This document shows positions 11,669 to 54,665 of a DNA stretch of 64,000 bases, in pieces. The stretch's first letter is position 1. Every line of letters starts with the position of its first letter. A program made the position numbers and the translations under genes. The notes below the pieces were generated by a model. It made no database searches. It had not been told where the DNA came from and worked only from the letters and a program-made list of their open reading frames with translations. This DNA comes from Calditrichota bacterium (lineage in GTDB: Bacteria > CLD3): the NCBI GenBank assembly GCA_008501735.1, contig QQUF01000045.1:124001-188000 (forward strand), read 5' to 3'.

Positions 11669-11742
11669 TAATTATTAATGTTTAATGACTAATAAATTTG
11701 CACTGAGCGACTTTAACATTCATCTTTATTAGGTTCTCTGAC

Positions 11743-11890
11743 GTTACGCAAAAAATATCCTTCACGATAAAAAACAAAAATTGAAATTTAATTTTTGTTT
11801 CGGATACGCCGCACACTGCCGTGCGTCTCTACGCAGTTTAGTTTTTCGTGTGTTTTGTGGGCAGTTTCTTAATTTCATTTTTTGCGTAAC
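11743..11890. mobile_element. MITE-like element C with perfect terminal inverted repeats
   Basis: A 148-base non-coding unit fills most of the gap after rho. Its ends are perfect inverted repeats, GTTACGCAAAAAAT at the left and its complement at the right. Inside, AAACAAAAATT/AATTTTTGTTT forms an 11-bp hairpin at 11772-11800, followed by a locally GC-richer part. The same GTTACGCA end is found on two longer elements at 41.4 and 52.7 kb, but the core here is unrelated to theirs by eye. No clear target-site duplication was seen. It could double as a terminator for the convergent genes. Confidence 0.6.
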
Positions 11891-11896
11891 ATCAAA

Positions 11897-40134: not shown

Positions 40135-41379
40135 TTAGGTAACCTTTATGCGTTTATTAAGCTGCTTGTTGGAAAGTTTTACAGAAAATTTTTCTTTGGT
40201 GAATGAGTTCTCGAAAAGTCTGTAAAATGTTTCTCTTTCACGATTTGAGACAACCGCAAAGTTATGAGCTTCTGCAATTGAAATTGGAAATCCCAAGCCC
40301 TTTTGAGATTGTAAATAAATTTGCGAGTGGATAAAATCCAACTTTTCGGGAAAGTCTGTTAGCCAAATTGGAATCTCAATTCTTGCGACTTCATTTTGCA
40401 CTTTGAGGTAAAAAAATCCAATCTTTAAATGAAAAGGAAAAAGCTCTTCTCCTTCAATTTTGGCGTTAAGAGCTTCCGAAGTGCTTAAAAAAACTTGGGT
40501 TCTTTCGCCTTCTTCTAAAATTTCGCCTAAAAGTTCAGAGTCTGAAATTCCATTAATTTTTTCGCAAGTGATTTCCTTTTTTTCAAGTCTTGGCTTACAA
40601 TTTTTGCAATCAATTTGATTTTGGTCGCAAAGGTTGAGTCTTAAAAAATTCGTAACCTCGTTTGACCTTGAAGAAGAAATGTAACTCGCAAATGGTATTT
40701 TTGCCTCGTAGAGTTCTGCGTAAACTTTTGAGTAACGTTCTAAAATATCTCGTTTTAAGTTGTCTTCTTTTAAGTCGTCTGGTGTAAATCTTCCGGGAAT
40801 TTCTGTCCCCAAAACCCAAGGAATTAAAGTTCCGTCAATCAAGCCAAAAAGGTTTGTGTTTTCTAATTTTGAAAGGCAAATTTCTGACAGTTTTTCTCTT
40901 TCAAGAATGTCGCGATTAAAGTCAACGAGTGCCGAATTTACTTGGACTTTTCTTCCATTAATTCTTGGAAAAATCTCATCTTCTTTAGCAAAAAGTAAAG
41001 CCTCAGAATTCATTTCAGCATTGGAATTTTCGCCGTAAGTAAGGCAAATTATTCCAAGATTAATCAAGTAACAAGGAGTAACTTCGTGACTGTCAGGATA
41101 AATTTGAGAACCGTCAACGGCAACGACTGTGTAATTTTCAATCGAATTTGGAAGTGGAAATTTTTCGGAGATTTTGAGTTTGGAAATCGGAATGTGCCAA
41201 AAAGAATTTCTTTCGTTTAGGTCTTCTTTTAACCTTCTTTGAAATTCTTCCCAATTTGAATCTAATTCGCTAAAATTTTCCAGAGCAATTTTAAATCTGT
41301 CTTTCATTACAGAATACAATTTTTTGTTTTCAAAAATCGTTTTGTCTAATTCTTTAACAACTTGAGTAAAATCTAACAT
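40135..41379 (-). CDS. NurA domain nuclease
   Basis: A 414-residue protein with the NurA fold. The first acidic motif is VVAVDGSQIYPDSH (Asp89), the second GLIDGTLIPWVLG (about residue 187), followed by ASYISSSRSNEV, and near the C-terminus FPISIAEAHNFAVVSNRER. NurA is a Mn-dependent 5'-3' exo/endonuclease which in archaea, and in some bacteria, works with the hexameric ATPase HerA in end resection; no HerA gene is in this window. A cluster of Cys (CDQ...CKNCKP...C near residues 250-275) could bind metal. Next to the XPB/Bax1 module but in a separate transcript with the RND gene. Confidence 0.85.
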   Translation of the reverse strand: MLDFTQVVKELDKTIFENKKLYSVMKDRFKIALENFSELDSNWEEFQRRLKEDLNERNSFWHIPISKLKISEKFPLPNSIENYTVVAVDGSQIYPDSHEVTPCYLINLGIICLTYGENSNAEMNSEALLFAKEDEIFPRINGRKVQVNSALVDFNRDILEREKLSEICLSKLENTNLFGLIDGTLIPWVLGTEIPGRFTPDDLKEDNLKRDILERYSKVYAELYEAKIPFASYISSSRSNEVTNFLRLNLCDQNQIDCKNCKPRLEKKEITCEKINGISDSELLGEILEEGERTQVFLSTSEALNAKIEGEELFPFHLKIGFFYLKVQNEVARIEIPIWLTDFPEKLDFIHSQIYLQSQKGLGFPISIAEAHNFAVVSNRERETFYRLFENSFTKEKFSVKLSNKQLNKRIKVT

Positions 41380-41436
41380 TGAATGTGATTTCTTAAAATT
41401 GGGTTTTCCAAACTCGCATTTGAGCCTTTAACTAAT

Positions 41437-41728
41437 GTTACGCAAAAAAAAGGAACTCGGCAGAAATGAAAATTTATCACAAAATTTGACTTTGCTTTAA
41501 CCACCCCATTTTTTCGTTTTCAGAAACTAAAGTTTCAAACGAAAAAAATCCCCTCCTTTAAAAAGATGGGAAAAAATTGTCGTGCTTCACACAACTAAAA
41601 TCTCTCCGCCTTTTCAAGGAGGAGACAGAAAATAAATTCAAGCAAAGCGTTAGAATTTTTTTCAGAGGTGGTTTAAAAGAACGTCAAAATCAGCAAGAAA
41701 TCAAACTTTTCCAAATTTGCGTAGCAAC
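41437..41728 (+). mobile_element. MITE-like structured element A (about 290 bp)
   Basis: A non-coding element starting GTTACGCAAAAAAAA and ending TTTGCGTAGCAAC, so its ends are imperfect inverted repeats. It is similar over its whole length, with scattered changes, to the reverse complement of 52655-52944. Inside are nested inverted repeats: AACCACC...GGTGGTT (about 41498 and 41667), a long hairpin with GAAACT/AGTTTC tip and TTTTTTCGTTT/AAACGAAAAAA flanks, and CTCC-CCTTTTCAAGG-GGAG. It lies between nurA and the first T9SS propeller gene. No transposase is present. Confidence 0.7.
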
Positions 41729-41917
41729 AGCCTTTAATTTCAAAAAATATAAACAATTTTGAATTAATAAAAACCTGTTAAAGTAAACACTTTTAAATTT
41801 TGAGGTAACACTAAAATCGCCTAATGAGCTATTTCAAAGCTGATTAACTTTGGCATAGAAATTGGTTTTACTAATTAGTTTAAACTAAAGTAAACAAAAC
41901 AAAAAGGCGTAACCTAT

Positions 41918-43111
41918 ATGAAACAATTTTTAACACCTTTGCTTTTGCTTTTTGCAAGTTCTTGCTTTGCTCAAACCGTTTCAACTTTAACTGCAAGTTT
42001 TAATGCAAGTGGTGGAGTTGCTTACCGTGACGGATTTGTTTACGTCGCAGATTTTGGAACAGCTTTGAACCAAGCAGACGGAACAAATGTTTACAAAGTT
42101 GACCCAACCGACGGAAGTTTTAGTGTTTTTGCTACAGGGCTTTCAGGAGCTTCGGGAAATTCTTTTGACTCTCAAGGAAATCTTTTTCAATCTAACATCG
42201 CTGCAAGTTCGATTTCAAAAATTGACACAAACGGGATTGTAACAAATTTTTCTTCAATCGGAGTTCAAGGACCAGTTGGAATTGCAATTGACAGTTTGGA
42301 CAATGTTTTTGTAGCAAATTGTGGAAACAGTACAATTCGTAAAATTTCAGCAGCAGGAGTTTCAACTCCATTTGCAAGCAACTCAACAGGTTTGTTAAGT
42401 TGTCCAAACGGACTGACAATTGACGAAAACGGAAATCTTTACACTTGCAACTTTGGAAACGGAAACATTGTTAAAATTGACCCGAACGGAGTTGTTACTT
42501 TGCTAACAGTAATGCCTGGAGGAAACAATGGTCATTTAACTTACGCTAACGGATTTCTTTTCGTTGTTGACAGAGGTGGAAATTCTGTTTGGATGGTAAG
42601 TTTGGAAGGTGAACAAGTTTTAGTTGCAGGAAGTGGTTTTTGTGGAAAATTAGATGGAGTTGGAAACCAAGCTACATTTTCATTTCCAAATGGAATTAGA
42701 GCGACACCGTCAGGAGACACACTTTTTGTAAACGATGCAGTTCCACTTTGCAATTCAAACCTAAACCCAATTGTAGTAAGAATGATTACGGGCATTAATT
42801 CAGCTGTTGGAATCAAAGAAGAAAGCTACAAACCAATTTCATTTTCACTTAGCCAAAACTACCCTAACCCTTTTAATCCTTCAACTTCGATTAATTACGA
42901 ATTGGGAATTACGAATTACGAATTAGGGAGATTGAGCATTTTCAACACTCTTGGTGAAACGGTAAAAGAGTTCGAAATTGCAAATTCAAAAGGCTCAGTA
43001 ATTTGGGACGGAACTAATGAAATTGGGAAAAATGTTAGTTCAGGTGTCTATTTTTATGAGCTAAAAATTGGCAACCAATCTCAAAAACGAAAAATGGTTT
43101 TGATGAAATAA
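41918..43111 (+). CDS. Secreted NHL/SMP-30-like beta-propeller with T9SS sorting domain (copy 1)
   Basis: A 397-residue exported protein with a signal peptide ending at SCFAQ. The body has NHL-type blades marked by repeated phrases such as FDSQGNLFQSN, IDSLDNVFVAN, IDENGNLYTCN and ISKID/IVKIDPNGVVT. A T9SS type A domain follows: FSLSQNYPNPFNPSTSINYELGITNYELGRLSIFNTLGE...SSGVYFYELKI, with a tandem NYEL repeat. No catalytic motif is evident; a binding role at the surface is likely. A paralogue follows 28 bases downstream and the two are surely co-transcribed. Confidence 0.88.
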   Translation: MKQFLTPLLLLFASSCFAQTVSTLTASFNASGGVAYRDGFVYVADFGTALNQADGTNVYKVDPTDGSFSVFATGLSGASGNSFDSQGNLFQSNIAASSISKIDTNGIVTNFSSIGVQGPVGIAIDSLDNVFVANCGNSTIRKISAAGVSTPFASNSTGLLSCPNGLTIDENGNLYTCNFGNGNIVKIDPNGVVTLLTVMPGGNNGHLTYANGFLFVVDRGGNSVWMVSLEGEQVLVAGSGFCGKLDGVGNQATFSFPNGIRATPSGDTLFVNDAVPLCNSNLNPIVVRMITGINSAVGIKEESYKPISFSLSQNYPNPFNPSTSINYELGITNYELGRLSIFNTLGETVKEFEIANSKGSVIWDGTNEIGKNVSSGVYFYELKIGNQSQKRKMVLMK

Positions 43112-43139
43112 TTTTCACTTTTAAATTTTTACGGGTAAA

Positions 43140-44309
43140 ATGAAAAAATCTTTAAAAACAGTTTTAGTAGGAATCGCAGTTTTACAGACTTCGATTTTGT
43201 TCGGACAAGACGTTACAACTTTGATTAGCCAAAACGGCGGAATAATTAGAGACGGTCTTTCAGTTGACAGTTTGGGAAATATTTATTCCTCTAACTTTGC
43301 AAACACAGTTGCAAAAATCAAACCTGACGGAAGTTTCACCTACATTTCAACGACAATGGGAACTTCGGCAGGAAACATTACAGACGCAGACGGAAATCTT
43401 TTTGTATCAAATTACAATCTTGGAGTGATTAGCAAAATCTTACCTAACGGAACAAAGTCAACTTTTGCTGATGGAATTCCTGGTCCTGTAGGATTGACTT
43501 TTGACTTAACAGGCGACACTTTGTTTGTTGCAAGTTACATTGGCGATTCGGTTCATAAAATTTCACCAGACGGCACAGTTTCAACTTTTGTTGACGGAAT
43601 GGGAATAAATGGACCAGCGGGAATTTGCACTGATTCAAGTGGAAATTTGTACGTTGGAAATTTCGACGACGCAAACATTCATAAAATTACACCAAGTGGT
43701 TTGATTTCACCTTTTGCAGTAATTCCTGGTCCTGGAACTGGGCAAATCGGTTACGTAACTTACAGCAAATCTCAAAATAAAATTTATGCAACAGCGAGAA
43801 GTGCTAACAAAATTTATGAAGTTGATTTAAATGGAAATGTTACTCACTTTGCAGGAACTGGAGCGAATAACAGTGTTGATGGAATCGGAACTTCTGCTTC
43901 CTTTGCATTACCGAACGGAATCACTTCTTCACCAAACGGCGACACACTTTATGTTTCAGAAGGTCCATCAGGGACTTTGAGAAGAATTGTTGGAGGAATT
44001 GCAACTGCAATTTCCGAACCAATTCAAACTCCTTTGAATTTTAAACTTGAGCAAAATTACCCAAATCCTTTTAACCCAACAACTTCTATTAATTACGAAT
44101 TGGGAATTACGAATTACGAATTGGGAAAATTAAGCATTTACAACACTCTTGGTGAGACAGTTAGGGAATTTGAAATTGATAAACCAAAAGGTTCAATCAA
44201 TTGGGACGGAACTAATAAACTTGGGAAAAATGTAAGTTCAGGAATTTATTTTTATGAGCTAAAAATTGGAAACCAATCTCAAAGAAAGAAAATGGTTTTG
44301 ATGAAATAA
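43140..44309 (+). CDS. Secreted NHL/SMP-30-like beta-propeller with T9SS sorting domain (copy 2)
   Basis: A 389-residue paralogue of the gene before it, with the same order: signal peptide (ending LFGQ), NHL-like blades (VDSLGNIYSSN, DADGNLFVSN, TDSSGNLYVGN, each followed by an I-x-KI-x-P-x-G strand), and a T9SS domain FKLEQNYPNPFNPTTSINYELGITNYELGKLSIYNTLGE...SSGIYFYELKIGNQSQ. The sorting domains of the two copies are nearly identical while the propellers differ more, which suggests gene conversion or strong constraint in the tail. Followed by two hairpins shared with the convergent gene. Confidence 0.88.
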   Translation: MKKSLKTVLVGIAVLQTSILFGQDVTTLISQNGGIIRDGLSVDSLGNIYSSNFANTVAKIKPDGSFTYISTTMGTSAGNITDADGNLFVSNYNLGVISKILPNGTKSTFADGIPGPVGLTFDLTGDTLFVASYIGDSVHKISPDGTVSTFVDGMGINGPAGICTDSSGNLYVGNFDDANIHKITPSGLISPFAVIPGPGTGQIGYVTYSKSQNKIYATARSANKIYEVDLNGNVTHFAGTGANNSVDGIGTSASFALPNGITSSPNGDTLYVSEGPSGTLRRIVGGIATAISEPIQTPLNFKLEQNYPNPFNPTTSINYELGITNYELGKLSIYNTLGETVREFEIDKPKGSINWDGTNKLGKNVSSGIYFYELKIGNQSQRKKMVLMK

Positions 44310-44315
44310 ATTTAA

Positions 44316-44380
44316 CCAACACAAAAAATCGGCTATTTTGTGTTGGGAGTAAATAAGGTAAATAAATTTAACCTTATTTA
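44316..44380. terminator. Double hairpin terminator between convergent genes
   Basis: First hairpin: perfect 11-bp stem CCAACACAAAA/TTTTGTGTTGG (44316-44346). Second: perfect 10-bp stem TAAATAAGGT/ACCTTATTTA (44350-44380), reaching the stop codon of the minus-strand CvfB-like gene. Confidence 0.7.
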
Positions 44381-44842
44381 CCTTATGGTTTTTACAAGCT
44401 CTATTCCCTGATTTGTAATCTTTATTTTATGATGTTTATATAATTTTCCGATTGCTTGTTTAAACACAATTTTACTTACTTGAAATTCTTTTTTGATATT
44501 TTCAGGAGAACTTTTATCATTAAATTCAGATTTTCCACCATTTTCCATAAGATGATCTAGAATTTTTTCAGTAGTCAAAAGAACATTCATCTCTTGCTTG
44601 GGCTGCATAGAAACGTCTATTTTCCCATCGTCTCTAATTAATTTTATATACGCTTTAAGTTTTTGTCCTAAACGATAATCTTCATAAACCTGATTTCCAT
44701 AAACCAATCCTGTGTATTCATCGTTTATCGCTACTTTTATACCTAAATCGGTAAAAGCATAAATCTCTACATCTACTTCCTGCCATTGAGTAAATATTTC
44801 TTCATCAACTGTTTCTTTTAAATAGTTAAAATTGTTTTCCAT
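44378..44842 (-). CDS. Short CvfB/YitL-like S1 RNA-binding protein
   Basis: A 154-residue protein matching the C-terminal half of CvfB: one S1-type domain (residues 20-82: VDVEIYAFTDLGIKVAINDEYTGLVYGNQVYEDYRLGQKLKAYIKLIRDDGKIDVSMQP) and a winged-helix domain (ILDHLMENGG, DKSSPENIKKEFQVSKIVFKQAIGKLYKHHKI). CvfB proteins of about 280 residues carry two more S1-like domains upstream; they are missing here, and the 376-base region before the ATG shows no remnant, so this is a natural short form or an old truncation. It likely binds RNA and affects expression post-transcriptionally. Confidence 0.82.
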   Translation of the reverse strand: MENNFNYLKETVDEEIFTQWQEVDVEIYAFTDLGIKVAINDEYTGLVYGNQVYEDYRLGQKLKAYIKLIRDDGKIDVSMQPKQEMNVLLTTEKILDHLMENGGKSEFNDKSSPENIKKEFQVSKIVFKQAIGKLYKHHKIKITNQGIELVKTIR

Positions 44843-45218
44843 TATTTATCCATTTCATCAATTGTTTTGAATAGCACCGCAATCAAAAGAAGCATTAATT
44901 TTTATCCACAATTAGTATATTTATTTTTCTAACTAACCAAAAAATTCCAACCTTACTTTAAAATAAGTTTTAGAATGTTTCAAAGTTAAATTCAAATTTC
45001 TTCATTAACAACAAGCAATATAAAATTACCAAGGAAATGGAAACTCAACTTTCGGTCTGAATTTCATAAATTTCATTAGTTTTGCTTTTTGGTGAAAACC
45101 TTTCTATTGCAAGAAAATTCAGGAACAGAGAAATTTTTCGAACATTTAATTTGTTGGGTATGAATAAGTATTCACTATTTTTGAAATAAAATTAATACAT
45201 TAAATATATTAGAATTTA
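44843..45218. other. 376-base intergenic region, no gene seen
   Basis: AT-rich divergent gap between the CvfB-like gene and the histidine kinase gene. I see no coding frame, hairpin array or RNA gene. A single TTATCCACA (44902-44910) matches the DnaA-box consensus but stands alone. Promoters for both genes should lie here. Confidence 0.5.
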
Positions 45219-46976
45219 ATGAATAAATCATACTCTAGTTCTGTATCAAGTTCTCCAATTCGGAAAAAAAAGATTCAACAATATTTAGGTCTTTTTATAA
45301 TTCTCCTAATAATTTATTTTTTTCTGAAAGATTCAACTTGGACGGGTGGAACTGTAGAATTACACACAATTATGGAGGCATTTGCGACATCACTTACAAT
45401 GAGTATTGGAGTTATCTCGATTGTTAGATTTTATTCTAAAAAAAATAATACATTTCTATTTATTGGTGCTGGTTTCTTAGGAACATCTTTTTTAGAAGGT
45501 TACCATATGGTTGTAACCTCTACTTTTTTTTATGAACATTTCCCTTCAGAACTATCTTCCCTTTCTCCTTGGAGTTGGGTTGCCGCAAGACTGTTTTTAT
45601 CTATTTTAATGCTTTTAAGTTGGTGGGCTTGGAAAAGAGAAGAGAAAATGGGAGATAAAGGTATTATTAAGGAAAATACAATTTATATAGTTATCGGAAT
45701 ACTAACATTAGTTAGCTTTTTATTTTTTGTCTTTGTGCCTCTTCCAAGAGCTTATTACCCTGAATACTTTTTTCACAGACCTCAAGAAATCATACCTGGA
45801 ATATTTTTTCTTTTAGCACTAATTGGCTATTTTAAAAAAGGGCATTGGGAAAAAAATGATTTTGAGCATTGGATGATTCTTTTTCTAATAATAAGTTTCT
45901 CTAGTCAATTAATCTTTATGACACTTTCAGGTAAAAATTTTGATATGATGTTCGATGTTGCCCACTTACTCAAAAAACTCAGTTATATTTTTGTTCTAAA
46001 TGGACTGCTTATAAGTATGTTTTATTTGTTCAAAGATGGAGAAGAAAAAACAGAAAGAATAAAAAAAATAAACTCAAACTTAAATGACGAAATTAATGAA
46101 CGAATAAAAGCTGAAAAAGAGTTACAAGAACTTTCCTCAAAATTAGAAAAAAATGTTGAGGATTTAATAATTGAGCAAAAAAAGTCCCTTAAAAGATTAA
46201 ATGAAACAACCAATGCAAAATTACTTGCTGAAAAGTCCCGAAACAAATTAAAACTCGTAGCAGAACAATTAGCAAATTCGAATAAAGAACTAACACAATT
46301 TGCCTTTATAGCTTCCCATGATTTGCAAGAACCTCTAAGAAAAGTAGAAATCTTTGGAAGTATGTTAGAGACAAGATTAAAAGGAAACTCAGACGAAAAA
46401 ATAGATAACTACATTTCTGTAATGGTAAACTCAGCTAAAAGAATGAGAGATTTAATAAATGGATTATTATCATATTCAAAAATTACATCAAGTACTATCC
46501 CCTTTCAATCAGTTAATCTAGATAAAATAGTCGCTGGAGTAGTTTCTGATTTACAAACGACGCTTGAAAACTCAAACGGAAAAGTTGAGTGGCAAAATAT
46601 GTTAACTATTGAAGCTGATCATTTACAACTAAGACAATTATTCCAAAACCTTATAAGTAACAGTATCAAATATTCCCTAAAAGGTGAAAAACCTTTAATT
46701 AAAATACATTGCGAAGAATTTTTAAATCCATCAAATGAAAATTTTTGTAAAATTTTTGTAAAGGATAATGGGATTGGATTCGATGAGAAATATTCTGAGA
46801 AGATTTTTGAAGTTTTTCAACGCCTTCATCCTAAAACTGAGTATAAAGGCTCAGGAATTGGGCTCTCAATTTGTAAAAGAATTATGGAACGCCATAATGG
46901 AACAATTTCAGTAATTAGCAAACCTGATAAAGGCTCAACCTTTATTCTAACTTTACCGATAAAACAAAATTTATAA
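45219..46976 (+). CDS. Membrane-bound sensor histidine kinase (MASE3-like sensor)
   Basis: A 585-residue kinase. About seven to eight membrane helices (residues 15-265) form a sensor with VELHTIMEAFATSLTMSIGVISI and FLGTSFLEGYHMV, similar to MASE3-type integral sensors. A coiled coil (270-355) leads to the HisKA domain with phospho-acceptor His in FIASHDLQEPLRK (about residue 368) and a HATPase domain with NLISNSIKYS (N box), DNGIGFDEKY (G1), FQRLHP and GSGIGLSICKRIMERHNG (G2). It is an orphan kinase: no response regulator is adjacent, the nearest being the receiver-phosphatase at 31.3 kb. Signal unknown. Confidence 0.9.
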   Translation: MNKSYSSSVSSSPIRKKKIQQYLGLFIILLIIYFFLKDSTWTGGTVELHTIMEAFATSLTMSIGVISIVRFYSKKNNTFLFIGAGFLGTSFLEGYHMVVTSTFFYEHFPSELSSLSPWSWVAARLFLSILMLLSWWAWKREEKMGDKGIIKENTIYIVIGILTLVSFLFFVFVPLPRAYYPEYFFHRPQEIIPGIFFLLALIGYFKKGHWEKNDFEHWMILFLIISFSSQLIFMTLSGKNFDMMFDVAHLLKKLSYIFVLNGLLISMFYLFKDGEEKTERIKKINSNLNDEINERIKAEKELQELSSKLEKNVEDLIIEQKKSLKRLNETTNAKLLAEKSRNKLKLVAEQLANSNKELTQFAFIASHDLQEPLRKVEIFGSMLETRLKGNSDEKIDNYISVMVNSAKRMRDLINGLLSYSKITSSTIPFQSVNLDKIVAGVVSDLQTTLENSNGKVEWQNMLTIEADHLQLRQLFQNLISNSIKYSLKGEKPLIKIHCEEFLNPSNENFCKIFVKDNGIGFDEKYSEKIFEVFQRLHPKTEYKGSGIGLSICKRIMERHNGTISVISKPDKGSTFILTLPIKQNL

Positions 46977-47000
46977 ACTCTTAATCCCTTTTATCTAAAA

Positions 47001-47033
47001 ATGCCATTAACAACCTAAGTCTATTAATGGCAT
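47001..47033. terminator. Bidirectional hairpin terminator
   Basis: Perfect 10-bp stem ATGCCATTAA/TTAATGGCAT with a 13-base loop, in the 83-base gap between the convergent histidine kinase and subtilase genes. Confidence 0.65.
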
Positions 47034-47059
47034 TTAAAATTGAGAAATAGAAATAAATC

Positions 47060-50011
47060 CTATTTCAAGAAAACTGCTTTTTTAGTAGAAGAAAATTCAG
47101 GAGTTGTAAGTTTGTAGAAATAAATTCCTGTTGAAACTAAATTCCCGATTTCATCAGTTGCATTCCAAGAAATGCTTTGTTTTCCTGATTCAAAACTTCC
47201 ATTTGCAAGTGTTTTAACAAGTTGCCCTTTTACGTTAAAAACTTCAAGTTTAACGTTTGTTGTTTTTGGCAAATTGAAAGAAATTTTTGTTGAAGGATTA
47301 AAAGGATTTGGGAAATTTTGCTCCAAACTAAAACTATTAGGAACTGATTTTCCTTTTTCTTCAATTCCAACAACAAACAAATCATCAACGATTGCTTGAA
47401 GTGCTTCATCAGAAGAAGTTAAAGCAGGTGATGATTTTATAATTGATGCTAAATCAAACCCGAAAACGGCTGCTTTCCAATTGTTGCCTTGAACTGTTAC
47501 CACTGCATTTCCTTCAGTTGCACTTGCTCCATAACCTGCAACAACAATTCCATTTCCAGTAACATTGATTACATCTTTAGAATCTTGAATATTTTCAGGG
47601 TTTGCTCCAGAAGCTCGCATTAAAAAACCAAGAGTAGCTCCAGGTGCAGACAGTGCACTTCCAGAAATTCCTCTCACAAAGTCAGAAGAACCTTGATAAT
47701 TTCCACCATTTCCAAGACCAAGCATTGTCATTAAAGCTCCATTTGACTGTGTTTGAATAATGTTTTGACCACTTAAGACCAAATGTCCACCAGCATTCAA
47801 GTAATCAACTAAAAGTTGCTCTTGAGATACACTCATTACATTAAAAGTTTTGCTTCCTGTATACCAAACAACAATTGATGGTTGTGTCAGCATTCCTAAT
47901 TCGGCTAATGTTGGTTCGTTAGGATTTTCATCCAAATCCCACAAAAATGAGTCATAACTTAAGTCATTACCAATTTTTTTATAAATCGTGTCAACTGAAG
48001 AAGATTGGTCAGCACCAACAATTAAAAGTGAAGCTGGTCCATTTGAATAATCGAAAGTCATATTTTGTCCAGCATTGATAGAAAATTGTGGAATTTCCAT
48101 TTCCGAATAAGGAAAGCCAGGAATAAAAGTCATTCTGTAATCAGATTCTGGTAAATCAACAGAGTAATCTCCATTTGCATCAGTTTGAAAAGAAGTAAAT
48201 TCAAATTCTTCATTTCCAGTAATTCCATAAACTACAATTTCACCGACGATTGCATTTCCATTTCCATCATCAAAAGTTCCGCTGACTGTTGCACCAGGGT
48301 TTTGTACTAAAGTAATTGGAAAATCAACAGGATTATTTGGAGTCAAAGTCGGAATTCCTGAAAAAGTAGCAGTTTGGTAACCAAAAGCTGAAACTTCCAA
48401 TGAAATATTAGTCAACAAAGGTTTTGCTGTGTAATTACCGTTAGCAGCAGTAATAAATTCTTGTTCTGTCTCAATTACTTTAACTGTCGCAAAAGAAATT
48501 GGATTCCCATTAGAACTGTTTGTTAAACTTCCTGATACAACCAAAGGAGAGATTTCTCCTGCCGCTGCAAGAACATCAATAATTCCCATTCCATAATCAT
48601 TATCATCTCCTGGAGCTCCTAAGTCTTTTGCAGTTGTAAGTAACGCAAGTTTAGCTTCTTCAGCAGTTACGTTTGGATTGACATTTTTAAGAAGTGCAAT
48701 TGCACCTGCAACAACTGGACCTGAGAAAGAAGTTCCAAAAGAATTAGAAGTTCCTCCTCCTCCAGCAGAACCATTTGCAACTTTTATTAATGACCCTTGT
48801 GCCATAACTTCAGGTTTAATTTTGAAATCTGCATTATGTGGTGGCGGAACAATTGGACTGTTCGCACAACCTGAAGGTCCACGAGAACTAAATCCTGAAA
48901 CAGAAACTTGATTTGAGTTTACAGAGCCAACTGAAAAAGTATTAACTGATGAAATAGCTCCAGAAGCAACATCGCCTTGAGTTTGAGCTCCAGGTCCTTC
49001 ATTTCCAGCAGACCAAACAGTTGCAACTCCAAGAGCTTCAAATGTATTATAGGTTTGGAACTCACTTAGATTCGCACAACCTCCAGTATTTCCGCCATAA
49101 GAATTATTAACAACAGCTAATTTGTCAAGAACGTCAGCAGGAAGCTGTGAAGCCCAAGAAAATCCTGCACCAGGGTTTCCAATTGTGATTCCAACTCCAG
49201 CATTGTGTTTTGAACCAATCCACCAAGCTCCAGGAGCAGTTCCTAAAGTATCAGTTAAAGTGTGTCCGACCATCATACTCATTGTTCCAGTCCCGTGAGT
49301 ATTTGAAGGTAAGTCTTCGGGAAATTGTGAATTTTGCCCAGCAGCATCATTCCAAGCGTGATTCCATTGAACATTCGGTTGAAGCCCGTACCAACTTGAA
49401 GATAAATAAGGTTGGTTTCCATCAACTCCTGAATCAATATTCATTACAATTACTCCACTTCCGTCGTAACCTAATGCCCAAAGTTTATCAGCGTTGATTG
49501 CTGAAAGAGCAGCATTTTTTTGGCTAATTTGAGCAGAACTTCCTTTTTCTTGGAATTCTGGTGAAACAGGAGTTGGGATTGTTCTTTCATAAAATCTAAA
49601 AAGAGTTTGAACTTCTTCAAAAGATGCGATTTCTTCCAAAAGCTCAGGAGTTGCATTAGTTATAAAAATCATATTTGAAAGAAAATTCGATTCAAAAGAC
49701 TCTACTTTTTCAGGGCTTGCTTTCAAATAATCTAAAATATTCTTCTGTGTGCGGTTAGCAACTTCTTTTAAAATAGGAAGAAGAATGTCTCTTCTTTCTG
49801 AGTTTTTAAGTCTTTCTTGATTGAATCGACTTTTAAAAGGTTTAATATCTACTTGTTCTTTTAAGTGAACGTAGGCAGAAACTCTTTCTCCTTCACGTAG
49901 TTCGCTAATTTGTTGCTGTAAATCCTCCGAAATATTTCCAGCATTAGCAAGAAGCGGAATTGAACTTAAGAGCAAGCTTAGTCCAATAGTTTGAAATTTT
50001 GCAAATTTCAT
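47060..50011 (-). CDS. Secreted S8 (subtilisin-like) serine protease with T9SS sorting domain
   Basis: A 983-residue exported protease; GGAG precedes the ATG. In order: signal peptide (1-24), an inhibitor-I9-like propeptide (about 40-145), the S8 domain with Asp193 (VIVMNIDSGVDG), His239 (NTHGTGTMS), oxyanion Asn303 or neighbour (VVNNSYGG) and Ser428 (GTSFSGPVVAG), two carboxypeptidase-regulatory-like/Ig domains (about 495-680), a region with a DUF-type alpha/beta look (SLLIVGADQSS...VVWYTGSKTFN, 690-880), and a T9SS type A tail (SLEQNFPNPFNPSTKISFNLP...TGIYFYKL). All catalytic residues are present. Likely a surface or released protease. Confidence 0.93.
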   Translation of the reverse strand: MKFAKFQTIGLSLLLSSIPLLANAGNISEDLQQQISELREGERVSAYVHLKEQVDIKPFKSRFNQERLKNSERRDILLPILKEVANRTQKNILDYLKASPEKVESFESNFLSNMIFITNATPELLEEIASFEEVQTLFRFYERTIPTPVSPEFQEKGSSAQISQKNAALSAINADKLWALGYDGSGVIVMNIDSGVDGNQPYLSSSWYGLQPNVQWNHAWNDAAGQNSQFPEDLPSNTHGTGTMSMMVGHTLTDTLGTAPGAWWIGSKHNAGVGITIGNPGAGFSWASQLPADVLDKLAVVNNSYGGNTGGCANLSEFQTYNTFEALGVATVWSAGNEGPGAQTQGDVASGAISSVNTFSVGSVNSNQVSVSGFSSRGPSGCANSPIVPPPHNADFKIKPEVMAQGSLIKVANGSAGGGGTSNSFGTSFSGPVVAGAIALLKNVNPNVTAEEAKLALLTTAKDLGAPGDDNDYGMGIIDVLAAAGEISPLVVSGSLTNSSNGNPISFATVKVIETEQEFITAANGNYTAKPLLTNISLEVSAFGYQTATFSGIPTLTPNNPVDFPITLVQNPGATVSGTFDDGNGNAIVGEIVVYGITGNEEFEFTSFQTDANGDYSVDLPESDYRMTFIPGFPYSEMEIPQFSINAGQNMTFDYSNGPASLLIVGADQSSSVDTIYKKIGNDLSYDSFLWDLDENPNEPTLAELGMLTQPSIVVWYTGSKTFNVMSVSQEQLLVDYLNAGGHLVLSGQNIIQTQSNGALMTMLGLGNGGNYQGSSDFVRGISGSALSAPGATLGFLMRASGANPENIQDSKDVINVTGNGIVVAGYGASATEGNAVVTVQGNNWKAAVFGFDLASIIKSSPALTSSDEALQAIVDDLFVVGIEEKGKSVPNSFSLEQNFPNPFNPSTKISFNLPKTTNVKLEVFNVKGQLVKTLANGSFESGKQSISWNATDEIGNLVSTGIYFYKLTTPEFSSTKKAVFLK

Positions 50012-50114
50012 TAATTCTCCGTTAAAGTTAAGGTTATGATTAGTTTAATTTTTTTAAGTCTAATGATTTAAGGGCTTTAAATGTAAAACTTTATAAGATT
50101 ATTCCAATTGAAAA

Positions 50115-51116
50115 TTATTGAGCAATTGAAACGCTTGGGTGAGCAGTCATTTTTAAATCAGATTTCATTCCTTTTTGTATCAATTTCCAACCACAGAAAG
50201 CAATCATTGCCGCATTGTCTGTACAAAAAACAGGCTTTGGAAACATTGCTTCAATTCCATTTTTTGAGGCTCTTTCAAACATCAAACTTCTCAACCTTGA
50301 ATTTGCCGCAACTCCTCCGGTAACAACGATTTTGTTTAATTTTAATTCTTTGGCAGCTTTGATAGATTTTATTACTAAAATATCTGCAACTGCTTCTTGG
50401 AAACTTGCCGCAATGTCTTCAAGATTTTCTTCGATTTCAATTTTACTTAGGCTTTGAAGAAAAACTCTAACAGCTGTTTTCATTCCTGAAAAACTAAAGT
50501 TAAAATTTCCACTGTCAATCATTGGTCTTGGAAATCTGTAGGCTTTCGGATTTCCATTTTTGGCTTTTTTATCAACGTTAGGACCTCCAGGAAATTCAAT
50601 TCCAAGCATTTTAGCAACTTTATCAAAAGCCTCACCAGCTGCATCATCAACAGTTTGTCCAACTAACTCGTATTCTCCAAAATCTTTAAAATGCACAAGT
50701 TGTGTGTGTCCACCAGAAACAACTAAAGTCAGGAATGGCGGTTTTAGTTCAGGATTTTCGATAAAATATGCGTGCATATGACCTTCAATATGATGAACTC
50801 CAACTATCGGAATCTCCAAACCTAATGAAAGTGCCTTTGCGAAATTTACGCCAACTAACAAGGCTCCAACAAGTCCAGGTCGATTTGTAACGGCAATTGC
50901 GTCAATCTCTTCTTTAGTGATTTTTGCTTCATCAAGTGCTTGTTTAACAACTTGAGAGACAAGTTTTTGATGAGCTCTTGAGGCAAGTTCAGGTACAACA
51001 CCACCAAAAGTCTTGTGTATTAGTTGTGAAGAAATAATATTTGAAATAATTTTTCCGTCTTCGAGAATTGCAGCAGCAGTTTCGTCGCAAGAAGATTCGA
51101 TTCCAAGGATTTTCAT
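50115..51116 (-). CDS. tsaD: tRNA N6-threonylcarbamoyladenosine transferase TsaD
   Basis: A 333-residue ASKHA-fold enzyme that moves the threonylcarbamoyl group to A37 of ANN-decoding tRNAs. Motifs are GIESSCDETAAAI at the start, VPELASRAHQK, metal-binding His109 and His113 in VHHIEGHMHAY, the nucleotide loop VVSGGHTQLV, DDAAGEAFDKVAK, FNFSFSGMKTAV and VTGGVAANSRLR near the C-terminus. Standard length. Monocistronic by spacing; it lies 103 bases downstream of nothing on its strand and is followed by the subtilase promoter region. Confidence 0.97.
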   Translation of the reverse strand: MKILGIESSCDETAAAILEDGKIISNIISSQLIHKTFGGVVPELASRAHQKLVSQVVKQALDEAKITKEEIDAIAVTNRPGLVGALLVGVNFAKALSLGLEIPIVGVHHIEGHMHAYFIENPELKPPFLTLVVSGGHTQLVHFKDFGEYELVGQTVDDAAGEAFDKVAKMLGIEFPGGPNVDKKAKNGNPKAYRFPRPMIDSGNFNFSFSGMKTAVRVFLQSLSKIEIEENLEDIAASFQEAVADILVIKSIKAAKELKLNKIVVTGGVAANSRLRSLMFERASKNGIEAMFPKPVFCTDNAAMIAFCGWKLIQKGMKSDLKMTAHPSVSIAQ

Positions 51117-51302
51117 AAAAAATCTTAAAATAAGTGGATTTTGGTTAAAATGACTACTCTAAAAGTAACTATTTTTTAGCAAATTTTCAAAATTCTTAAT
51201 TACAAATTAGAGTTTGTTTTGAAATTAGTTGTTTTTTATCTTTTGCTTTCTTTTTGAGGAAAATCAAAACTAACTAAAACATAACTTTAAGGAAAGACTT
51301 GA

Positions 51303-51851
51303 ATGAATTTTAATGTTAATTTCAAAGAGTTTTTACAGTTTGTAATCATCAATACTGCTGCAATGTTTATTCTAATGGTAACATTAGAAGCTATTTTCGT
51401 AATTCACGTTCCTCATCAAGATGATGGTTGGTGTGTCAAATTTAATAAAATTGAAAAAGAATTTGGAAACCCATTAAGCGATACAGAATACACTTACGAG
51501 TGTTTGGAGTTCAAGAATGATTTTGAGAAAAGAATCGAACAAACAAACATTGCAATGGGTGACAGAAAAGTCTTCATTAGAATCGTAGTTTTCTTAATTG
51601 GATTTTTAACTGCTTTTGGATTTTTCCACCTTTACCCACTCTGGAAAGGCAAATCAAATGTTTTTAGGCATTTAAAACTTTTACATTTTTTAACTGATAT
51701 GCCTGTAATTGCTGTCGCAGCTTTGATTTCTGCAATTTTCCTTCCACTTTTGATACTTGGAAGTTTACCTCACGCAGAAGTTTGGTATTTCCAAATTTTC
51801 TACGACTACAACTATTCTGTTGCAATGGAAATTCTTGAAACATTGAAGTAA
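51303..51851 (+). CDS. Membrane protein of unknown function
   Basis: A 182-residue protein with AAGGAAAG before the ATG. Three or four hydrophobic segments are visible: residues 12-33 (FVIINTAAMFILMVTLEAIFVI), 91-110 (IRIVVFLIGFLTAFGFFHL) and 133-153 (VIAVAALISAIFLPLLIL). Between the first two is a charged, soluble loop with two Cys (DDGWCVKFNK and YECLEFK) that may form a disulfide outside the inner membrane. No family recognised. It is divergent from tsaD and convergent with yaaA, with only four bases between the stops. Confidence 0.7.
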   Translation: MNFNVNFKEFLQFVIINTAAMFILMVTLEAIFVIHVPHQDDGWCVKFNKIEKEFGNPLSDTEYTYECLEFKNDFEKRIEQTNIAMGDRKVFIRIVVFLIGFLTAFGFFHLYPLWKGKSNVFRHLKLLHFLTDMPVIAVAALISAIFLPLLILGSLPHAEVWYFQIFYDYNYSVAMEILETLK

Positions 51852-51855
51852 AGTT

Positions 51856-52623
51856 TTAACTTTTTCTTACAAAAACAAACTCACTTTCAGTTGAAAGTTT
51901 AGCTTGGAATTTGTAACCACTTGCCTCAAACTCTTTTAATTTTTCGACTTGGTCAATTTTATTTTTTACGATGAAATTGACCATTTGTCCTCTCGCCATT
52001 TTTGCAAAAACAGCAACAACTTTCAATTTCCCTTCTTTTTCTTCTTTAAAAGCCAAATTCAAAATTTTGTGCTGAAACTTTTTCGTATCAATTGTCTTGA
52101 AATACTCTCCCGAAGCAAGATTTAGCAATACTCTGTTTGTGTGCTTTGCTAATTCATCATTCAGGTTTTGGGTAAATTTTACCCTCCAAAATTCGTACAA
52201 AGACTTTCGTTTTACTTTCAAACTTGTTTGCATTTCAAGTCTGTAAGGTTGAATCAAATCTAAAGGTTTTAAAATACCGTAAAAAGCGTCTAAGATTCTT
52301 AAGTTATCTTGAGCAAACTTTAAGTCTTTTTCTGAAAAGCTATCGGATTGCAGATTTTCAAAAACGTAACCGTTGTAAGCCAGAATTGCTTGTTTTGAAT
52401 TTTCGAGCTTGAAGTCTTCACTCCAATTTTGGAAACGTTCATAGTTTTCTTGAGCAATTTTGTCGCTCACTTTAAAAAGTGTTTTTAACTTTTTCTCGGA
52501 TTTCTTTTTTAGAATTTGAGAAATTATTTTCGCTTCTTCTAAATGTTGAGGAGTCGAAAATTGAGTTAATTTATTTTCAGAATTAAAATCTAAAGTTTTT
52601 GCAGGTGAGAGAATTGAAAGCAT
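51856..52623 (-). CDS. yaaA: YaaA family peroxide stress protein (DUF328)
   Basis: A 255-residue cytoplasmic protein. The start MLSILSPAKTLDF, the QAILAYNGYVFENLQ segment, RILDAFYGILKPLDLIQPYRLEM and NLASGEYFKT, then VVAVFAKMARGQMVNFIVKN are all hallmarks of YaaA. In E. coli YaaA limits intracellular free iron and protects DNA during peroxide stress; it has a DNA-binding fold. Standard length. It starts just inside of element B and is transcribed away from it. Confidence 0.95.
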   Translation of the reverse strand: MLSILSPAKTLDFNSENKLTQFSTPQHLEEAKIISQILKKKSEKKLKTLFKVSDKIAQENYERFQNWSEDFKLENSKQAILAYNGYVFENLQSDSFSEKDLKFAQDNLRILDAFYGILKPLDLIQPYRLEMQTSLKVKRKSLYEFWRVKFTQNLNDELAKHTNRVLLNLASGEYFKTIDTKKFQHKILNLAFKEEKEGKLKVVAVFAKMARGQMVNFIVKNKIDQVEKLKEFEASGYKFQAKLSTESEFVFVRKS

Positions 52624-52654
52624 TTTAAACCTTTAATTTATTTTTCAAGAACTG

Positions 52655-52944
52655 ATATTACGCAGAATTGGGAAAATTAATTTCTTTGTTTATTTTGATG
52701 TTTTTTAAACCACCTCTGAAAAAAATTCTAACACTTTGCTTGAATTTGCTTTCTGCCTCCTCCTTGAAAAGGTGGAGAGTTTTTTGTCGTGTAAAGCACG
52801 ACTGTTTTACCCCTCATTTTCAAGGAGAGGAATTTTTTCATTTGAAACTTTAGTTTCTGAAAACGAAAAATGGGGTGGTTAAAGTAACGTCAAATTTTGT
52901 GGTAAATTTTGACTTTCACCGAGTTCTTATTTTTTTTGCGTAAC
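52655..52944 (-). mobile_element. MITE-like structured element B (about 290 bp, inverse of element A)
   Basis: Reverse-complement homologue of element A (41437-41728). On the minus strand it begins GTTACGCAAAAAAAATAAG and ends CAATTCTGCGTAATATC. It keeps all internal hairpins of element A, including the AACCACC...GGTGGTT pair, the GAAACT/AGTTTC hairpin and the CTCC-CCTTTTCAAGG-GGAG hairpin, and adds a perfect GTCGTG...CACGAC stem. It fills most of the gap between yaaA and the CoA ligase gene. The rest of that gap (52945-53054) is AT-rich and should hold the ligase promoter. Confidence 0.7.
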
Positions 52945-53054
52945 GTAAGTCAAGAAGTTAAAAAAATTTTAGAAGTGATTTTTGAGTTTTCTTTTTTATT
53001 TTTAACGATTCAATTCTAAAAATTCAACATTTTAACAAATCGGGAGAATGCTTT

Positions 53055-54665
53055 ATGCCTTCTGAAAAATTTCTCAAGAACTTAACAGAACCGTCAAAAT
53101 GGGGAGAAAGAGTTTACACAACTGATGACTTTAATTATCCAAATGAATTCAATTCAGCTGTAGAATTGCTTAAAGTTGGACTTGGAATTGACAATGGCGA
53201 AAAAATTGCAATTCATTTTGGCGACCAGACTTACAGTTACAACCAAGTTGAAGCAGAGTCAAATCGTTGGGGAAATTTTTTCAAGAAACTCGGTGTCAAA
53301 CCCGAAGACAGAGTGATTCTGAGAATGTTGAACAATCCCGATTACGTTTTTATGTGGCTTGGACTTTTGAAAATTGGTGGAGTTGCAGTCGCCACAATGC
53401 CTTTGCTTAGAGCAAAAGAATTGAGTTACATCGCCGAAGACTCAGAAGCTCGATTTGTAATAACTTCCGAAAACTTGTTAGCCGAAGTTGAAAACTGTAA
53501 AGGCAAAATGCCAACTGTCGAAAGAATTTGCTCAATTGGGAACACTGGCGAATTTGCTTTTGAAGACGAATTAAATACTTGTTCAACTGAATTAGATTTT
53601 CACTTAACCAAAAGAGACGACGTTGCTTTAATCGGTTACACATCAGGAAGCACAGGAAATTCAAAAGGTACTGTTCACTTTCACGAAGACGTTTTGGTAA
53701 TCGCTGACGGTTATGCAAAAAACATACTTAAACCAACTCCTGAAGATGTTTTTGGTGGACATCCAACTTTAGCTTTTACTTTTGGTCTTGGTGCATTACT
53801 TGTTTTCCCTTTCAGGTTCGGTGCCTCTACAGTTTTGTTAGAAAAATTTACACCAGAAGTAATGTTGGATTTGCTACAAAATTATGGAGTTACAATTTCT
53901 TTTTGTGCTCCTACAGCTTACAATGCAATGATGAAACTTAATGCAGAAAGCCCTCACAATTTATCCAAACTTAGAATCGGAGTAAGTGCAGGAGAAACTC
54001 TACCAGCAGTAACTTTTGATAGCTTTAAAAGAGTTTTTGGAGTTGAGCTTTTGGACGGAATCGGAGCAACTGAAATGCTTCACATTTTTATTACAAACTA
54101 TCCTGGCGAAGCTAAACCTGGAAGTACAGGAAAAGTTGTACCTGGCTACCAAGCAAAAGTTGTTAACGAAAATTTTGAACAGCAACCTGCAGGAGAACCT
54201 GGAGTTTTGTTAGTAAAGGGTCCAACAGGTTGTCGTTACTGGAAAAAACCTGAACGTCAAGCAGGTTACGTTTACGACGGTTGGAACACTCCTGGAGATA
54301 TTTTCAGCCAAGATGAAGAAGGTTACTTTTACTACCATTGTAGAAATGATGATTTAATAATTTCTTCTGGTTACAACATTGCAGGACCTGAAGTTGAAAA
54401 TTCTCTTTTAGCTCACGATGCAGTCAAAGAGTCAGGAGTGATTGGTAAACCAGATAAAAATAGAGGCCAAATTGTAAAAGCTTACGTTGTTTTAAATGAA
54501 GGTTTTTCGCCTTCTGAGGAAATGGTCTTAGAACTGCAAGAACAAGTAAAAAACTATTTAGCTCCTTACAAATATCCGCGTGAAATCGAATTTGTTTCCG
54601 AACTTCCAAGAACGGAAACAGGAAAAGTGAAAAGATTTATTTTACGTAAAAAATCAACTGAATAA
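53055..54665 (+). CDS. Benzoate/2-aminobenzoate-CoA ligase family protein
   Basis: A 536-residue AMP-forming acyl-CoA synthetase; GGGAG precedes the ATG. The P-loop is IGYTSGSTGNSKGT (about 194-207), followed by HPTLAFTFGLGALLVFPFRFGAS, the acid-binding GIGATEMLHIFITN, and the hinge DDLIISSGYNIAGPEVE that marks the benzoate-CoA ligase group, with the catalytic Lys in ETGKVKRF near the end. By family it would activate an aromatic or short acyl acid to its CoA ester. No other aromatic degradation gene is near, so the substrate is open. A molybdopterin-fold gene follows 18 bases later. Confidence 0.88.
   Translation: MPSEKFLKNLTEPSKWGERVYTTDDFNYPNEFNSAVELLKVGLGIDNGEKIAIHFGDQTYSYNQVEAESNRWGNFFKKLGVKPEDRVILRMLNNPDYVFMWLGLLKIGGVAVATMPLLRAKELSYIAEDSEARFVITSENLLAEVENCKGKMPTVERICSIGNTGEFAFEDELNTCSTELDFHLTKRDDVALIGYTSGSTGNSKGTVHFHEDVLVIADGYAKNILKPTPEDVFGGHPTLAFTFGLGALLVFPFRFGASTVLLEKFTPEVMLDLLQNYGVTISFCAPTAYNAMMKLNAESPHNLSKLRIGVSAGETLPAVTFDSFKRVFGVELLDGIGATEMLHIFITNYPGEAKPGSTGKVVPGYQAKVVNENFEQQPAGEPGVLLVKGPTGCRYWKKPERQAGYVYDGWNTPGDIFSQDEEGYFYYHCRNDDLIISSGYNIAGPEVENSLLAHDAVKESGVIGKPDKNRGQIVKAYVVLNEGFSPSEEMVLELQEQVKNYLAPYKYPREIEFVSELPRTETGKVKRFILRKKSTE

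Follow-up and report, generated by a model that had tools for sequence, protein, structure and literature searches.

Two non-coding elements (copies A and B; Table 1) lie in opposite orientation about 11 kb apart within the window, i.e., the entire 64,000-nucleotide stretch of a Calditrichota genome that was analyzed, and each is situated between divergent genes. An earlier note had described the two segments as homologous over their full length and had suggested that they belong to a structured family of miniature inverted-repeat transposable elements (MITEs). Alignment of copy A with the reverse complement of copy B (MAFFT, BLAST) confirmed the homology, with 84–86% identity over the full length and a similarity that stops sharply at the element borders, and a separate repeat search of the window recovered the same inverted pair. 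The likeness might have been limited to poly-A/T sequence, as the earlier note had allowed; instead it includes two exact 30-bp runs, the longest exact identity between the copies, and many runs bearing G+C. The inverted ends that had been suspected are present, with the true borders a few bases outside the segments originally delimited (41437–41728 and 52655–52944). Also in agreement with the initial description as non-coding sequence with nested hairpins, neither copy holds a listed open reading frame (ORF) of at least 100 aa, and both fold far better than shuffled sequences (z of −5.6 and −7.5). The two propeller genes beside copy A (41918–43111 and 43140–44309) are adjacent, are of the NHL/Vgb type with type IX secretion C-terminal domains, and are 84% alike over their last 277 bases.

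Table 1. Elements with the family ends in the window and their component features (window positions).
Feature	Position	Strand	Remarks
MITE copy A, 299 bp	41432–41730	+	intergenic, nurA (40135–41379, −) to T9SS beta-propeller gene (41918–43111, +)
Copy A left target-site duplication CCTTTAA	41425–41431		identical to 41731–41737
Copy A right target-site duplication CCTTTAA	41731–41737		identical to 41425–41431
Copy A left terminal inverted repeat CTAATGTTACGCA	41432–41444	+	1 mismatch to family end
Copy A right terminal inverted repeat TGCGTAGCAACAG	41718–41730	−	2 mismatches to family end
Copy A hairpin unit	41499–41674	+	covariance model R1 match, 192.7 bits
MITE copy B, 298 bp	52652–52949	−	intergenic, yaaA (51856–52623, −) to AMP-binding enzyme gene (53055–54665, +)
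Copy B target-site duplication TCAAGAA (+ strand)	52645–52651		identical to 52950–52956
Copy B target-site duplication TCAAGAA (+ strand)	52950–52956		identical to 52645–52651
Copy B hairpin unit	52707–52880	−	covariance model R1 match, 184.6 bits
158-bp element, same kind of ends CTGACGTTACGCA ... TGCGTAACATCAA	11738–11895	+	interior different from copies A/B

The family end is a 13-bp inverted repeat, CTGATGTTACGCA, which is imperfect in both window copies (1–2 mismatches per end), with copy B terminating in CTGATATTACGCA and TGCGTAACGTAAG. The same genome contains a third full-length copy (contig C24, 21565–21864), which has perfect ends and carries ATTCTAA on both sides. The three full copies are 298–300 bp in length, under the limit of about 600 bp for MITEs, and all of them (3/3) have an exact 7-bp duplication at the border of the terminal inverted repeat (TIR). 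When positions 299 bp apart were paired at random in AT-rich parts of the window, 7-bp matches arose at a frequency of 5e-4, such that duplications at three of three copies would be expected by chance at ~1e-10. Based on the TIRs, the 7-bp duplications, the lack of an ORF, the third copy, and the occurrence of the ends in many other bacteria, the copies are MITEs, insertions of a transposable element without a gene of its own. Specifically, copies A and B stem from a non-autonomous transposon of the cut-and-paste type that was inserted here long ago. The MITE family proposed in the earlier note is therefore substantiated and extends beyond two copies, both within the genome and through the same ends elsewhere, the near relatives examined being without a copy.

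A fourth element with ends of this kind, 158 bp in length, has no detectable target duplication, and in its left part a 73-bp portion matches contig C45 near 15.5 kb at 86% identity. Pieces of this element recur on contigs C45, C1, and C44.

Matching ends and insertion sequences in other bacteria

A pattern scan of GTDB (one genome per species, about 85,000 species) with the 15-base end CTGATGTTACGCAAA returned at least 120 stretches. Among the matches listed, 66 of the 99 with sufficient flanking sequence had an inverted partner no more than about 430 bp away, and duplications matching at 6–7 of 7 bases bordered 46 of these 66 paired-end elements. The controls had an inverted partner in 3 of 129 cases for reversed sequence and in 1 of 49 for viral contigs. 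For the 32 elements with exact duplications among the matches listed, the end not used as the query is conserved at positions 1–13 and falls to background from position 14, the target is a 7-bp TTANTAA-like site, and the interiors, most of which fold better than shuffles, are unrelated between genomes except for close relatives. None of the listed GTDB loci was an ORF-bearing copy as judged by paired ends and duplications.

The listed records with exact duplications bear the names Thiotrichales, Thiomargarita, Thiotrichaceae, Bacteroidetes, Saprospiraceae, Chitinophagaceae, Ignavibacteriales, Hydrogenimonas, Sulfurovum, Chloroflexi, and Pyrinomonadaceae. At least six groups have these 13-bp ends (Pseudomonadota, Bacteroidota, Ignavibacteria, Campylobacterota, Chloroflexota, and Acidobacteriota). 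Most of the records are metagenome-assembled, and a single assignment could reflect contamination, but many records underlie the spread.

The lead to complete insertion sequences (IS) came from a search of plasmids with the palindrome of end and target, the weak scores of which (E of 0.6 to 8) were treated as leads only. Exactly the CTGATGTTACGCA ends bound an IS of 1112 bp in Acinetobacter schindleri (duplication TTATTTA), one of 1095 bp in Stanieria (duplication TTAATTAA), and one of 1108 bp in Cyanobacterium HL-69, where no duplication was seen. All three encode transposases that match NCBIfam NF049921 (IS701 family) at 339–344 bits, relative to a cut-off of 250 (E about 1e-102), and that also match PF13546 and PF01609, the latter at 42–54 bits; one annotation labels the NF049921-type transposase as ‘ISAba11 group’. 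Among the more distant relatives, that in Piscirickettsia has the related ends CTCACCTTACGCA and the 7-bp duplication CTTATAA, so that AT-rich duplications of 7–8 bp are seen at three NF049921-type IS, with none seen at two further IS, and that in Moraxella has the related ends CTGAAGTTACGCA. Additionally, 102-bp MITEs with the same ends occur on plasmids of A. pseudolwoffii and Bernardetia. At two loci that had been fetched only for their ends, protein comparison revealed a degraded transposase start; in Hyella it follows immediately on an end of this type, and on an Ignavibacteria contig it follows an end with one mismatch.

The IS of A. schindleri, Stanieria, and Cyanobacterium HL-69 resemble the window elements in their identical 13-bp ends and their AT-rich 7–8-bp duplications, and differ from them in being 1.1 kb long with a transposase gene, whereas the window elements code for nothing. 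As exactly these ends bound NF049921 (IS701 branch) insertion sequences elsewhere, this type is identified as the parent type of the window MITEs. An IS4-family helper of the ISPepr1 type, considered on account of the 7–8-bp duplications and CT ends, was dropped once the NF049921 insertion sequences were found.

The earlier note had called for a search of the genome for a transposase with matching ends, and such a transposase is present in other bacteria but was not found in the genome itself, where a PF01609 profile search (which a short fragment would escape) detected no NF049921-type gene. The window copies are therefore probably stranded at present, their helper transposase seemingly lost from the genome. 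The only DDE gene recovered with PF01609 (C52:57166–57669) has other ends. This gene is apparently split into two frames and has inverted ends near ACGTGAATTCGATA.

The hairpin unit and its probable mobilization

The interior shared by the full copies consists of four to five hairpin arms enclosed by a closing stem, AACCACC/GGTGGTT, and occurs at about 15 places in the genome (BLAST and covariance model). The 13 interior copies outside the window pair that were checked against ORFs lie between genes, with an 8-bp overlap between one short copy and a predicted start. Only three of the about 15 interior copies have CTGATGTTACGCA ends on both sides, while about 12 have other ends. Two of the units (C44:198838 and C1:6397), which share 96% identity, are bounded by AAGTAGTCGAGCA instead, and at C59:42950, C4:14906, and C55:109179 the unit is reduced to one or two arms. 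Due to its presence at about 12 loci with other ends, the hairpin is a unit of its own that is carried as cargo inside the MITE.

When nine full units are compared, standard pairs make up 93% of paired cells, and compensatory changes occur at 9 pairs compared to 3.3 in shuffles (0 of 500 shuffles reached 9), a comparison to be read with the caveat that sequences related by descent may outscore such shuffles even when no structure is present. This pattern supports a fold that is apparently conserved, whether as RNA or as DNA in single-stranded or cruciform form. The unit was not found in any GTDB species with the query GTYAGAATTTTNTTCAGRGGTGGTT, copy A had no match in the plasmids and phages searched, and searches of relatives (BLAST and covariance model) produced only chance-level hits or hairpins that merely look similar. 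Among the latter, same-class relatives have a cruciform repeat (AACCTCACCC..CCCTCTCC..AAGGAGAGGG..GGGATGAGGTT; three loci in two genomes) with weak model scores that is alike in architecture only. In the genome itself, a hairpin unit on contig C32 near 170.0–170.3 kb has one CTGATGTTATGCA end and lies between two imperfect copies, ~26 bp in length, of the 3' end of a gene; these flanking copies resemble a long target duplication.

It is highly likely that an NF049921-type DDE transposase mobilized the MITE pair in trans by way of the 13-bp ends, with the hairpin unit as free cargo. Such a transposase (IS701 family), supplied in trans, would recognize the CTGATGTTACGCA ends, excise the element, and re-insert it at an AT-rich TTANTAA-like site, and a staggered cut of 7 bp, sometimes 8 bp, would create the flanking duplications. 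The content between the ends would be free to vary, as three copies hold the multi-armed hairpin unit and the fourth (11738–11895) holds another interior. Nesting would have placed the hairpin unit inside the CTGATGTTACGCA ends, with nested insertion as the simplest path. Weighing against this mechanism, the helper is known only from other organisms and the window ends carry 1–2 mismatches each.

More tentatively, the ends and interiors may be separable modules, in which the CTGATGTTACGCA ends have spread across at least six phyla and each lineage has drawn its interiors anew from cruciform repeats present locally, the two modules being swapped by some process. Nested insertion followed by mobilization, or gene conversion through the hairpins, would be candidates for such a process, and a trade of the hairpin unit between the CTGATGTTACGCA and AAGTAGTCGAGCA end types in this genome would form part of the same possible, if less than probable, scenario. 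A slightly more doubtful suggestion, which refines mobilization by the NF049921 type rather than opposing it, is that the AACCACC unit is a true mobile element with a mechanism of its own that inserted once into a CTGATGTTACGCA MITE, after which the composite spread. The about 12 unit loci without CTGATGTTACGCA ends, including the two with AAGTAGTCGAGCA ends, are in keeping with this suggestion, but no consistent border or target duplication could be assigned to the free units. It is very improbable that the segments are instead maintained as a functional element, either a conserved structured RNA or a regulatory sequence, to which the MITE-like ends would be incidental. The compensatory changes and the position of both window copies between divergent genes would suit a functional element, but the hairpin segments have no Rfam match, class relatives hold no comparable copy, the target duplications are perfect, and the unit is found in diverse intergenic contexts.

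Orientation of the pair and relation to known systems

As a large inverted pair, the copies had been proposed in the earlier note to allow inversion of the 10.9-kb block between them. Their inverted orientation and 84–86% identity over 298 bp are what an invertible pair would have, and yet a recombination switch that flips the block is very improbable here. A crossover between inverted copies swaps the outer flanks and leaves each copy with two different half-duplications. Each copy retains its own matched pair of duplications, without exchange, and thus the assembled block is in the orientation of the time of insertion. Further, the longest exact identity between the copies is only 30 bp, and the third copy and many related elements occur singly, which makes the pairing incidental. 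The switch is not supported. The gene order of the tsaD region is not conserved in relatives.

The IS701 family was defined with a 4-bp direct repeat (PMC2266710) and ISAba11 proper is reported to create 5-bp duplications (PMC7885321), as was also the case at the ISAba11-type locus examined here. The 7-bp duplication of the window elements departs from the direct repeat of classical IS701 and fits only the NF049921 sub-branch, not ISAba11 or IS701; membership is claimed only for the ends of this branch. The IS701-like ISAba11 shares TTACGCA within its ends and has a related transposase, but differs in the outer half of the end (TAGGACTTACGCA) and in its 5-bp duplication, and its transposase is only 26% identical to that of A. 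schindleri.

That bacterial MITEs can resemble their parent IS at the ends only is already known from MITEAba12 (PMC6382973). Like the window elements, MITEAba12 is short, AT-rich, and non-coding, with TIRs, a target duplication, and an interior unrelated to any parent IS; it differs in its TIR (GGCTTTGTTGCACAAA), its 9-bp duplication, and its transposase family. A search of the open literature for the end sequences returned nothing relevant and no description of the family, which may be recorded in subscription journals or ISfinder. As far as can be told, what is new is the spread across phyla, the connection to NF049921, and the sharing of one hairpin unit by different end types. A set of anonymous intergenic hairpin repeats from many uncultured bacteria can thereby be linked to one recognizable end pair and a named transposase family, and the 13-bp end combined with a 7-bp TTANTAA-like duplication offers an annotation rule for such repeats. 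The elements also provide a clean case of MITE ends and interiors with separate histories.

The window elements share with REP/REPIN sequences, which are moved by RAYT transposases (PMC3733652), the character of intergenic hairpin repeats, but the latter rely on a single-strand transposase and have no DDE-type ends with target duplication. That a RAYT (Y1) transposase moved the window elements as REPIN-like single strands, a reading for which the hairpin-rich unit and the two Y1 transposase genes of the genome could be cited, is largely refuted and the least probable of the alternatives, as each Y1 gene is bordered by different hairpin repeats of its own and the window elements possess inverted ends of the DDE type together with 7-bp duplications. 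These two RAYT-like genes (C44:152497–152832 and C52:116651–116995) each lie between copies of their own REP-like hairpin (GTGCGTTTCGCCTGCATTCGCATTCGACCCGCT... and CTGAGAGCCTCACTGGGAGTGAGAATCTCAG, respectively).
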